Assembly: GCF_029891575.1 (NCBI RefSeq)
Contig: NZ_JARZHF010000001.1
Coordinates: 434,001 to 498,000, forward strand
DNA: 64,000 nucleotides
DNA from: Salipaludibacillus daqingensis
GTDB lineage: Bacteria > Bacillota > Bacilli > Bacillales > Salisediminibacteriaceae
Reading direction: 5' to 3'
Made by a program: the position numbers and the translations under genes. Below, one piece after another: positions 3,095 to 10,419 of this stretch. The notes under the pieces were generated by a model. It had not been told where the DNA came from. It worked only from the letters and a program-made list of their open reading frames with translations, and ran no database searches. Each line of letters begins with the position of its first letter. Within the stretch, counting starts at the first letter, position 1.

Positions 3095-3703
3095 TTATTT
3101 TGCTGCTTCGTAACGTTTAGCAACTTCATCCCAGTTAATTACATTAAAAAATGCATCTACGTAATCAGGACGCTTATTTTGGTATTTTAAGTAATAAGCA
3201 TGTTCCCATACGTCTACACCTAAAATTCCTGTTTTACCTTCCATAATTGGTGTATCTTGATTTGGAGTACTTGTTACTTCAAGCTTTCCATTATTTACGG
3301 CAAGCCAAGCCCAACCGGACCCAAAACGAGTTAATGCTGCATTTTTAAATTCTTCTTTAAATTTATCAAAGCTACCAAAAGTTTTATCAATAGCGTCAGC
3401 TAGTTCTCCTGTAGGAGCTCCTCCGCCATTTGGAGACATGATTTCCCAAAATAATGTGTGGTTAAAGTGACCTCCACCATTATTGCGAACAGGACCTCGA
3501 ACGCTCTCAGGTAAACCATCTAGGTTCGTTAATAATTCTTCTAAACTCTTCCCCTCAAGATCACTATGACCTTCAAGAGCACCGTTCAGCTTCGTTATAT
3601 ACGTGTTATGGTGCTTACCATGATGAATTTTCATTGTCTCTTCATCAATGTGTGGTGCTAATGCGTCGTGTGCGTATGGTAGTTCGGGTAAAGAAAATGA
3701 CAT
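3095..3703 (-). CDS. sodA: Superoxide dismutase (Mn/Fe type)
   Basis: This 202-residue cytoplasmic enzyme converts superoxide to oxygen and hydrogen peroxide. The length and sequence are typical of Bacillus SodA. All metal ligands are visible: His27, His about 82 in [10 protein letters not shown], and Asp and His in [12 protein letters not shown]. The Gly and Gln environment ([16 protein letters not shown]) favours manganese. AAGGAGGAGATATG gives the start (ATG AGT). A plausible promoter (TTGAAA, 17 nt, TAATGT) lies about 130 nt upstream in the gap to the next gene. Transcribed alone. Confidence 0.97.
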
Positions 3704-4825: not shown

Positions 4826-4918
4826 TGGAGGAGGAAGAGGGATTCGAACCCCCGCGGGCTTTGACACCCCTGTTGGTTTTCAAGACCAATCCCTTCAGCC
4901 AGACTTGGGTATTCCTCC
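4826..4918 (-). tRNA. tRNA-Ser (anticodon UGA)
   Basis: A 93-nt class II tRNA with a long variable arm. The anticodon loop CTTGAAA carries UGA and reads UCA codons. The TTCGAATCC T-loop is present, the acceptor GGAGGAA pairs with TTCCTCC, and the CCA end is encoded. Last gene of a three-tRNA operon. Confidence 0.95.
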
Positions 4919-4934
4919 TAGTTAACCTATATAA

Positions 4935-5011
4935 TGGTGGACCCTGTAGGACTCGAACCTACGACCGGACGGTTATGAGCCGTCTGCTCTAACCAACTGA
5001 GCTAAGGGTCC
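4935..5011 (-). tRNA. tRNA-Ile2 (anticodon CAU, lysidine-modified type)
   Basis: A 77-nt cloverleaf with loop CTCATAA (CAU) and encoded CCA. The body sequence (GGACCCTTAGCTCAG start, GACGG anticodon stem) matches the Bacillus minor isoleucine tRNA modified by TilS rather than a methionine tRNA. The elongator methionine tRNA is the neighbouring gene. Automated tools often label this species Met. Confidence 0.85.
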
Positions 5012-5030
5012 TTACTTTAGAAGTAAATCA

Positions 5031-5107
5031 TGGTAGCGGCGGAGGGGATCGAACCCCCGACCTCACGGGTATGAACCGTACGCTCTAGCCAGCTGAGCTA
5101 CACCGCC
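5031..5107 (-). tRNA. tRNA-Met (elongator, CAU)
   Basis: A 77-nt cloverleaf with anticodon loop GTTCATA (CAU) and encoded CCA. The body (GGCGGTGTAGCTCAGCTGG) is that of the Bacillus elongator tRNA-Met. The first base pair G-C is normal, unlike the initiator. First gene of the operon. Confidence 0.95.
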
Positions 5108-8112: not shown

Positions 8113-8442
8113 ATGGTTGGAGAGCGTGTTAAAAAATATCGGAAAGATGCTGGTATGTCATTGACAGAACTAGCAGAAAAGGCAGGAGTTGCAAAGTCTT
8201 ACTTAAGTGCATTAGAAAGAAATATTCAAACAAACCCTTCTATTCAATTTTTAGAAAAAATTGCAGAAGTGTTACAAGTAAACATGAATCAATTATTAAA
8301 AGATCAACCGGAAAACAGTTATGAATCAAATCTTGATAACGAATGGCAATCACTCGTAAAAGAAGCAATGGACTCTGGTGTATCAAAAGAAGAATTCAAA
8401 GAATTTTTAGAATTCAACAAATGGAAAATTAAAAATAAGTAA
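8113..8442 (+). CDS. sinR: SinR-type master regulator of biofilm formation
   Basis: A 109-residue cytoplasmic repressor. Residues 1-65 form an XRE helix-turn-helix (TELAEKAGVAKSYLSALERN with TNPSIQFLEKIAEVL), nearly superimposable on B. subtilis SinR. Residues 74-108 are the SinI-interaction/multimerisation domain (EWQSLVKEAMDSGVSKEEF, EFL). The length matches SinR (111). GAGGAGGGG lies upstream of ATG. SinR represses matrix operons and is antagonised by SinI. Unlike B. subtilis, no sinI gene precedes it, and a SinI-like gene lies 1.5 kb downstream on the other strand. A TATAAT (8070-8075) is a likely -10 element. Confidence 0.92.
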   Translation: MVGERVKKYRKDAGMSLTELAEKAGVAKSYLSALERNIQTNPSIQFLEKIAEVLQVNMNQLLKDQPENSYESNLDNEWQSLVKEAMDSGVSKEEFKEFLEFNKWKIKNK

Positions 8443-8474: not shown

Positions 8475-9146
8475 TCATGATACTTTCTTAGCATGAACGA
8501 TCAACCTGTGTGTCGGATTAACCATTGGTTCACACGTAATTAAAGTGATGACCGATTCACCTTCTATCGGTTCTAAAACGGAGATATTATCTGGAGTTAC
8601 AACGGACGTTTGAAACACTACATATTTTAATTCCTCTTTATGCGTTTCAATTGTCACTATGTCCCCGTTCTTAAGTTCATCCAACCGATTAAATTGTCTT
8701 CCACTAGTATGACTTCGGTGTGCAGCAATACCTGTATTTCCAACGTCACCAATGGAAGATGAATTGGATAAAAGTCCCGCTCCAACATCTAAATTCTTAT
8801 CTGATGCACCATCCAACATTGGCATTGTTAGATTAATTTTATCAATATGAATCAAACCTACAACATCACTCTCGTTCTTGACCATTGTTTTACTTAACGG
8901 TTCCTCTTCTGAATTTTCAATTTCATTATCCCTCGAGCTATTCTCTTCAATATTAATGTTAAATACAGTTTTTAGTTCATCCTCTTCGTTTAACTTCTCT
9001 TTTTCATCTGTAAAAATCTCATCTAGCTCTAGAAATTCTTCTACTAAATCTTGTTCTAAAGAGGCGTATTGATGATTTTGTATATGTGGAAACAGAAGAG
9101 TAATGACACCTACTAACATAAAAATAACAGCTATCCGTTTTCTCAT
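8475..9146 (-). CDS. Sortase (probably class D)
   Basis: A 223-residue cysteine transpeptidase anchored by an N-terminal membrane helix (residues 4-22). A long acidic linker (25-85) precedes the sortase domain. The catalytic triad is complete: His in GIAAHRS, Cys in ITLITCEP, Arg in NPTHRLIVHA. The TxTC-like surround and compact size suggest the class D (YhcS-like) group. Such enzymes covalently attach surface or matrix proteins to peptidoglycan. No LPxTG substrate is encoded nearby. A GTTCTTT SinR-type half site (9230-9236) lies in its upstream region beside TTTACA, so control by SinR is plausible. Confidence 0.85.
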   Translation of the reverse strand: MRKRIAVIFMLVGVITLLFPHIQNHQYASLEQDLVEEFLELDEIFTDEKEKLNEEDELKTVFNINIEENSSRDNEIENSEEEPLSKTMVKNESDVVGLIHIDKINLTMPMLDGASDKNLDVGAGLLSNSSSIGDVGNTGIAAHRSHTSGRQFNRLDELKNGDIVTIETHKEELKYVVFQTSVVTPDNISVLEPIEGESVITLITCEPMVNPTHRLIVHAKKVS

Positions 9147-9471: not shown

Positions 9472-9714
9472 ATGATTGGAGATATGATTCGTCATAGAAG
9501 AAAAGAAAAAGGATTAACATTATCAGAGTTATCCAGAAAAACTGGGGTTTCGAAGTCTTATTTAAGTTATTTAGAAAGAAATATGAAAAGAAACCCTTCA
9601 ATTGAAATTGTAAAAAAGATATTTCTCGTTTTAGACCTTCCATTATCCTCACTCATGTATCAAGAGAAAATAATCTCTGATATTCCTTTAAAGGAAAAAC
9701 ATAATTCTTTTTAA
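9472..9714 (+). CDS. Short SinR-like XRE repressor lacking the SinI-binding domain
   Basis: An 80-residue DNA-binding protein. Residues 1-62 are an XRE helix-turn-helix very like SinR next door: SELSRKTGVSKSYLSYLERN and NPSIEIVKKIFLVL mirror the SinR recognition helix. The C-terminal 18 residues bear no SinI/SinR multimerisation helix, so SinI should not titrate it. AGAAGGAGGCGAC gives a very strong ribosome site before ATG. It could compete with SinR at the same operators, or be a paralogous repressor of the sortase. The function is inferred from sequence only. Confidence 0.8.
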   Translation: MIGDMIRHRRKEKGLTLSELSRKTGVSKSYLSYLERNMKRNPSIEIVKKIFLVLDLPLSSLMYQEKIISDIPLKEKHNSF

Positions 9715-9977: not shown

Positions 9978-10139
9978 TCATGGAGCCAATTCATTTGAAG
10001 ACGTATTTTTTTGAAAAATAGTACTTTCTTTTTGCTCTAGTAAAAAAGATCGAACATATTCAATTGTCAAACCTAATTTTTTCGCTTCCTCTAATAGTTT
10101 TTCCCACTCTCTCTCTTCTCTAGATTCGTTATCCCCCAT
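9978..10139 (-). CDS. sinI: SinI-like anti-repressor, 53 residues
   Basis: Short open frame starting ATG (10137-10139) and ending TGA. The product MGDNESREEREWEKLLEEAK continues as a helix KLGLTIEYVRSFLLEQKES. It shares the EW-x2-L-x2-EA pattern with B. subtilis SinI and with the SinI-type domain of the SinR above (EWQSLVKEA), followed by the second amphipathic helix that forms the SinI-SinR heterodimer. The length (53 versus 57 for SinI) fits. AGGAGG lies 12 nt and AGGAG 1 nt before ATG. It has no DNA-binding domain. The gene is detached from sinR and sits directly behind a c-di-GMP riboswitch. Residues after 40 are unlike SinI. Confidence 0.75.
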   Translation of the reverse strand: MGDNESREEREWEKLLEEAKKLGLTIEYVRSFLLEQKESTIFQKNTSSNELAP

Positions 10140-10169
10140 TCTCCTAGTATGCCTCCTCTCCTAATATCA

Positions 10170-10293
10170 TCAAAGTTGACTAGGCGGTTCAGCCATCATA
10201 GGGGGTAGAATTGTCAATAATTTATGTATTTCCCCGTTAGATCTGGAACTTTGCGTCCCTATTTTTCAATAGGTTTGCCTTTGACTAGAAGAA
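10170..10293 (-). promoter_or_regulatory. Cyclic-di-GMP-I riboswitch (GEMM-I) in the sinI leader
   Basis: The minus strand shows the class I core in order: AAAGGCAAACC, a hairpin closed by a GAAA tetraloop (TATT-GAAA-AATA), GGGACGCAAAG, then the tetraloop-receptor arm containing TCTAAC paired across CGGGG/CCCCC to CTATGATGG. The closing GCTGAACCGCC follows. These are the invariant elements of the c-di-GMP-I aptamer, including the AAACC and GACGCAAAG ligand-pocket segments. The aptamer ends about 35 nt before the sinI start codon, with no U-run after it, so control of translation is likely. CCUAGU at the aptamer 3' end is complementary to ACUAGG beside the start codon. Confidence 0.9.
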
Positions 10294-10411: not shown

Positions 10412-10419
10412 TTCGACAA
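10412..10419 (-). promoter_or_regulatory. Spo0A box upstream of the riboswitch-sinI unit
   Basis: TTGTCGAA in the direction of sinI matches the Spo0A box consensus exactly, about 120 nt upstream of the riboswitch. In B. subtilis sinI is switched on by phosphorylated Spo0A. No sharp -35/-10 pair was found between the box and the riboswitch. TATAAT-like sequence near 10330 is the best -10 candidate. Confidence 0.45.

Follow-up and report, generated by a model that had tools for sequence, protein, structure and literature searches.

A c-di-GMP-I riboswitch upstream of a SinI-like anti-repressor gene in Salipaludibacillus and other relatives of Bacillus subtilis

Riboswitch aptamer and genes at the locus

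The window, i.e., the whole stretch of 64,000 nt from the genome of Salipaludibacillus daqingensis analysed here, contains a c-di-GMP-I riboswitch aptamer ahead of a small open reading frame (ORF) on the minus strand. A full-length sinR gene and a shorter SinR paralogue lie on the plus strand, convergent to the small ORF. The locus comprises the following features.

8113-8442, plus strand: full-length SinR, the presumed partner of SinI (phmmer, PF08671)
8475-9146, minus strand: sortase of 223 aa, between sinI and sinR (PF04203, E 3e-31)
9472-9714, plus strand: SinR paralogue of 80 aa, helix-turn-helix only (HTH_3, E 8.1e-16)
9978-10139, minus strand: SinI-like ORF of 53 aa, start codon ATG (PF08671 match)
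10180-10289, minus strand: c-di-GMP-I riboswitch aptamer (RF01051, cmscan)
10285-10288, minus strand: 5' strand of helix P1, CUAG, pairing with 10180-10183
10180-10183, minus strand: 3' strand of helix P1, CUAG, pairing with 10285-10288 and adjoining the presumed C92 equivalent at 10184
10412-10418, minus strand: TGTCGAA, a 0A-box-like motif in the 200 nt upstream of the leader

The aptamer is matched over its full length by the Rfam model RF01051 (cmscan; window 10289-10180, minus strand; model positions 1-87 of 87); two of its pairs are flagged as non-standard. The score of 67.6 bits (E 4.3e-11) exceeds the gathering score of 35 bits and places the element among the c-di-GMP-I (GEMM-I) riboswitches, as an earlier note on this DNA had proposed. 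Flanking the conserved core, the closing helix P1 is formed by CUAG:CUAG. In 33 of 38 SinI leaders, including that of the window, a P1 of at least three pairs occupies this position; other sequences pair there in the relatives, and only one or two pairs are found in 5 of the 38. The ligand-contacting bases, which we take to be G20, A47, and C92 in the customary numbering, are present in the window aptamer when the alignment is read by eye; the C at 10184 is presumably the equivalent of the ligand-pairing C92. The element shares with other members of RF01051 the full-length covariance match and the P1 flanking the core; it differs in that binding of c-di-GMP is predicted and in having the gene of a SinI-like anti-repressor downstream.

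The start codon of the SinI-like ORF (10139) is located 40 nt downstream of the end of the Rfam match, which agrees with the close placement described in the earlier note and corrects its distance of about 35 nt. Because the score of the 53-aa protein against PF08671 (29.4 bits, E 6.6e-7) is below Pfam's curated cut-off of 31.4 bits, it is termed "SinI-like" here. For its seven syntenic orthologues in the genus, the scores range from 30.6 to 45.3 bits, with six of them above the cut-off. The SinI-like proteins have a common core in which W12, A19, G23, and F32 are invariant (25 aligned, of 38 found). In a search against solved structures, SinI chains were the best matches (E 0.04-0.05), none of them significant alone, followed by SinR chains; one unrelated chain is included in the overall range (E 0.04-0.4). 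Judged by sequence, the small ORF at 9978-10139 probably encodes a SinI-like anti-repressor that switches off a biofilm repressor.

The presumed target at 8113-8442 is closely related to SinR (phmmer E 8.1e-42 to 1b0n_A) and contains the domain PF08671 (49.7 bits). By contrast, PF08671 was not found in the 80-aa paralogue at 9472-9714, which might therefore escape SinI. This paralogue is convergent to sinI, and a similar ORF of 80-101 aa is present in five other Salipaludibacillus loci examined. No sortase-type ORF of at least 100 aa was found between sinI and sinR in five other Salipaludibacillus loci examined. The minus strand of the window also carries a 6S RNA and three tRNA genes (1372-1557 and 4829-5107), and a blastn search for a related plasmid gave no match.

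Linkage of riboswitch and sinI in the genus and the order

The eight Salipaludibacillus genomes examined contain 46 c-di-GMP-I riboswitches (seven in the genome of the window), and a SinI-like ORF is located directly downstream of 26 of them. The same genomes encode 38 proteins matching PF08671 (E<1e-5), namely eight full-length SinR (one each) and 30 stand-alone SinI. Of the latter, 26 are located behind a riboswitch, including all four in the window's genome, and each genome has 3-5 stand-alone SinI genes as opposed to a single full-length SinR. A permissive scan of two of the four unlinked genus genes (L212, L215) and of three loci from the SinR survey below (L231, L253, L296) found no c-di-GMP riboswitch.

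Several of the riboswitch-sinI pairs have further genes or frames attached. One pair (L038; G000:C3:237044-242135) is followed by a ComEA-like ORF, whereas four others (L040, L047, L078, L082) are paralogous units followed by an ORF resembling N-acetylmuramoyl-L-alanine amidase; both names are taken from sequence reading. At three loci, an earlier ATG follows the Shine-Dalgarno run just before the sinI start. It reads ATG TAA at L046 and opens a three-codon frame at L076 and L081, whose TAA end overlaps the sinI start; such frames might be a case of reinitiation.

Outside the genus, SinI was found downstream of 12 of the 114 riboswitches examined (14 picked from the family and the 100 top-scoring among the matches listed). 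Among 160 c-di-GMP-I riboswitches, 38 are followed by a SinI-like ORF on the same strand within 300 nt, and none is preceded by one within 300 nt upstream (0/160). The SinI profile was built from 11 seeds, 10 of which are genus proteins that are counted again among these 38; PF08671 provides an independent check.

The linkage extends across the order. Of 35 genomes sampled from 34 families, 22 encode a stand-alone SinI (here, an open frame no longer than 100 aa), and at least 18 of these (17 families) have at least one SinI directly behind a riboswitch (gap of at most 250 nt). At least 23 of the 41 stand-alone SinI genes are linked in this manner, where a rough estimate predicts about 0.006; the riboswitches comprised 150 of 160 matches and one from the window's genome, and the linkage counts are lower bounds. 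The linkage of riboswitch and sinI is far above chance and conserved across the order. Together with the RF01051 match, it supports the notion that a c-di-GMP-I aptamer is placed to control the SinI-like gene of the window.

The same arrangement is found when sinR is taken as the starting point. The best 80 of 404 confirmed candidates from a SinR alignment scan include loci from Evansella, Sutcliffiella, Metabacillus, Mesobacillus, Rossellomorea, Lederbergia, Peribacillus, and Fictibacillus, and Rfam scans located a riboswitch of the clan in 69 of the 80. The 70 riboswitch matches (49 RF01051 and 21 RF03167) are followed by a SinI ORF within 330 nt in all cases but one (69/70). Among the 11 loci without a riboswitch match, eight lack a SinI ORF in the stretch examined and three have one. 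The 21 matches (L228-L307) that score best with RF03167 (c-di-GMP-I-GGC) show that SinI is among the downstream genes of this variant model as well. One locus (L259) has tandem riboswitch-sinI units upstream of sinR (2449-2539 and 3153-3240), and long P3 insertions (matches of 122-183 nt) precede sinI at L260, L262, L270, L271, L272, L274, L276, and L290.

The orientation of these riboswitches bears on the question whether sinI is their target. As sinI and sinR are convergent in the window and at 34 of the 70 matches, the riboswitch might act on sinR (or on the HTH-only paralogue) by an opposing transcript, with the small ORF being secondary. An antisense-acting c-di-GMP-I riboswitch has been proposed at a SinR homologue of Paenibacillus sp. 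FSL P4 (PMC9943018, as far as available), which likewise lies next to the SinR gene on the opposite strand. That case was read as antisense control of the regulator, whereas the convergent riboswitches at the named SinR loci precede a SinI ORF. The other 36 of the 70 riboswitches are located on the same strand as sinR, the SinI ORF is directly downstream at 69 of the 70, riboswitches also precede SinI paralogues far from sinR, and the leader region of the window has no terminator-like element. We regard antisense action as very unlikely.

Leader folding and the direction of the switch

In many relatives, the riboswitch and the ribosome-binding site are connected by a conserved hairpin. Its strict motif, consisting of the aptamer end CCUG(A/G)AAUAC, a short loop, and GUAUUUU(A/G)GG, is present in 40 of the 70 riboswitch matches at the best 80 of 404 SinR loci. 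Within this hairpin, the ligand-binding end of the aptamer is held together with the beginning of the Shine-Dalgarno sequence. A hairpin anchored in the aptamer and overlapping the Shine-Dalgarno sequence was detected at a shuffle p<=0.05 in 39 of 64 distinct named leaders (duplicates merged, leader L284 left out), and by the same threshold in only 4 of the 27 distinct leaders of a second set, mostly from Salipaludibacillus. Gapless stems of at least six pairs are present in 53 of 89 leaders and the other 36 were counted as lacking a stem; a few of the 53, being short, may be due to chance. In some lineages, the pairs vary on both sides of the stem (e.g., A-U, G-C, U-A, and C-G at pair 6). Since the 3' end of the aptamer can pair with the Shine-Dalgarno sequence, the conserved hairpin predicts a translational ON switch, which is the simplest reading of this expression platform.

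The leader of the window lacks the long conserved hairpin. The elements that enter its folding models are all located on the minus strand.

10284-10293: UUCUUCUAGU, 5' leader and P1 strand, complementary to ACUAGGAGAA (folding model)
10179-10184: CCUAGU, 3' end of the aptamer, candidate anti-Shine-Dalgarno strand with six gapless pairs to AUUAGG
10160-10165: AUUAGG, partner of CCUAGU, overlapping the start of the Shine-Dalgarno run (folding model, stem search)
10152-10162: AGGAGAGGAGG, Shine-Dalgarno run (sequence)
10139-10148: ACUAGGAGAA, beside and into the start codon, including ACUAGG at 10143-10148 (sequence)

At the place of the conserved hairpin, the window leader has the pairing CCUAGU:AUUAGG, whose modelled probability is 0.25, 0.01, 0.24, and 0.25. 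The helix between UUCUUCUAGU and ACUAGGAGAA has modelled probabilities of 0.88, 0.05, 0.90, and 0.44 in the free state (four flank choices) and of 0.00-0.06 when the aptamer and P1 are formed; ACUAGGAGAA is not conserved in the other seven leaders of the genus. The earlier note had suggested that CCUAGU pairs with ACUAGG beside the start codon. This pairing had to be abandoned: its modelled probability is 0.00-0.04, and ACUAGG is located by the start codon in only one of the eight syntenic Salipaludibacillus leaders, that of the window. In the folding models, CCUAGU:AUUAGG over the Shine-Dalgarno run and the helix of UUCUUCUAGU with ACUAGGAGAA are better candidates.

The energy required to open the ribosome-binding site points in the same direction in most leaders. 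With P1 placed according to the alignments, on which the modelled ON direction depends, formation of the aptamer makes opening cheaper in 31 of 38 leaders, the difference exceeding 1 kcal/mol, and harder in one. The mean gain (+3.1 kcal/mol) is larger than that of shuffled sequences (+1.3; Wilcoxon p 4e-4) and of platform swaps (+1.9; p 0.04), although these p-values overstate the significance because the leaders are related. The window leader, under the same alignment-based P1, gains 4.7 kcal/mol (+1.5 to +5.0 over all 32 flank choices), a value that is also attained in 4 of 60 shuffled sequences and 9 of 25 platform swaps. A first placement of P1 was rejected; it required pairing of the second C of the aptamer with the G that immediately precedes the GC of GGC, whereas the alignments put P1 further 5'. 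With this misplaced P1, the Shine-Dalgarno sequence was more open in 12 of the 38 leaders and less open in one, with no clear direction (overall p 0.15 vs shuffles; window -0.5 kcal/mol).

An effect of opposite sign would result if the ligand-stabilized P1 allowed the 5' leader (UUUCUU) to pair with the Shine-Dalgarno region, so that c-di-GMP turns SinI off. RNAalifold unites P1 (CUAG:CUAG) and a helix between leader and Shine-Dalgarno region in a single structure for the 10-member class of the window. Among the seven leaders of group B, four have no gain (0.0 in one, -0.7 kcal/mol in three), the latter being consistent with such an effect, and the others have +0.7, +5.0, and +5.0 kcal/mol. 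Moreover, c-di-GMP riboswitches of B. thuringiensis have been named both "on" and "off" (cbpA and mcpA; PMC7793685, available in part), although they act on surface-protein and chemotaxis genes and not on the anti-repressor of a regulator. We nevertheless consider an OFF switch unlikely, given the easier opening in 31 of the 38 leaders against a single one that is harder to open, and a hairpin in the relatives that blocks the Shine-Dalgarno sequence with the ligand-binding end of the aptamer.

Switching by transcription termination is unlikely because there is no terminator-like site between 9900 and 10500 and the gap to sinI is only 40 nt. For the leader of the window, the modelling favours an ON switch, weakly so when compared with the controls. 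Folding of the bound and unbound states thus leaves the translational ON switch of the earlier note as the best model, with a signal in the window that is weak against shuffles and swaps and without the pairing by which the note had explained it.

Overall, it is probable that the c-di-GMP-I riboswitch controls the translation of the SinI-like anti-repressor, with the ligand turning it on and SinI removing SinR. In the ligand-free state, the strands that would close P1 would pair with the ribosome-binding region, and SinI would be low. When c-di-GMP rises, aptamer and P1 would form, sequester these strands, and free the ribosome-binding site; SinI would then be made and take SinR off its targets. 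The conserved hairpin between aptamer end and Shine-Dalgarno sequence would represent the OFF state in many relatives, whereas other, weaker pairings would have to serve in Salipaludibacillus, which lacks it.

Spo0A, c-di-GMP supply, and relation to known systems

Transcription of sinI may still require Spo0A, which would create a two-input gate. The motif at 10412-10418 matches what we take to be the consensus of the 0A box. TGNCGAA, on either strand, occurs in 38 of 100 distinct 200-nt stretches upstream of SinI-linked riboswitches, compared with 171 of 1814 (9.4 percent) AT-matched background windows of the named loci. For comparison, three scrambled versions of the motif occur in 7, 1, and 18 of the 100 stretches and in 8.2, 9.2, and 13.6 percent of random windows. 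The motif is not unique to sinI, because 28 of 121 other c-di-GMP-I riboswitches also have it upstream. The enrichment suggests that Spo0A may be a second input besides c-di-GMP. The contrast drawn in the earlier note, that sinI of B. subtilis is controlled by Spo0A and not by such an RNA, is probably too sharp in view of this enrichment. In B. subtilis, sinI is activated by Spo0A (PMC8876208, in the part available).

The genome of the window has 22 GGDEF matches (20 over Pfam's cut-off), and one GGDEF gene is located directly upstream, on the same strand, of a riboswitch-sinI pair (L038), which makes c-di-GMP signalling likely in this organism. The claim of the earlier note that the second messenger is wired straight into the biofilm/sporulation switch says more than the evidence supports; a search of the same genome for the TasA family (PF12389) gave no match.

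The enrichment of 0A-box-like motifs (38/100 vs 171/1814) would also fit a situation in which, as in B. subtilis, Spo0A is the only input that sets SinI, and the aptamer is a relic or binds another ligand. The lack of the common hairpin in the window and the better fit of the RF03167 variant model to 21 of the 70 matches near named sinR genes point the same way. We consider this very unlikely in view of the strong aptamer score, with RF01051 as the match reported for the window, the linkage in at least 17 of the 34 families sampled, and the 22 GGDEF matches in the genome. A caution applies to the ON model itself, as a real c-di-GMP-I riboswitch need not matter much in the cell: the Bc1 riboswitch of B. 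thuringiensis had hardly any effect on its downstream gene under physiological conditions (PMC11218506, available part).

The components, i.e., riboswitch, SinI, and SinR, are of known kinds, and the interest lies in the generality and testability of their combination. As in the sinIR locus of B. subtilis, a SinI-like ORF is located beside a full-length SinR, but the B. subtilis genome has no match to RF01051; the same is true for all 14 control genomes, to which it belongs. For B. subtilis, no RNA that links c-di-GMP directly to the SinR switch is known to us. A putative c-di-GMP riboswitch before sinI (BMMGA3_08510) is listed for B. methanolicus MGA3 in Table 4 of PMC4342826. It resembles the present case in its position ahead of sinI; the accessible part of that paper covers one species and gives no mechanism, whereas the arrangement described here is linked across the order, comes with a conserved platform, and has several paralogues in each genome. 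No riboswitch ahead of a Bacillus-type sinI is described in the available parts of a paper on C. difficile (sinI/sinR locus, c-di-GMP riboswitches) and of a review. In the literature searched, which included few subscription papers and was partly accessible, the arrangement is named once, in the table of PMC4342826, and neither its breadth nor the conserved platform was found.

Because the same arrangement recurs in many relatives of Bacillus, the results suggest a widespread direct link from c-di-GMP to the biofilm switch. We tentatively put forward a broader scenario, which we consider almost as likely as not: a two-input gate would be the default form of sinI in large parts of the Bacillus order, with Spo0A acting at the promoter and c-di-GMP at translation via the conserved hairpin. 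On this view, B. subtilis would have departed from the default by losing the RNA input, and the module would have been amplified in genera like Salipaludibacillus so that several c-di-GMP-gated anti-repressors converge on one repressor.

The riboswitch-sinI leaders are a ready test system, and they offer another possible reading for the riboswitch published as antisense-acting on a SinR-like gene. If the leaders work as modelled, many relatives of B. subtilis carry a direct c-di-GMP route that acts at the translation of the anti-repressor, and what has been concluded about SinI and SinR in B. subtilis would not apply to these relatives.
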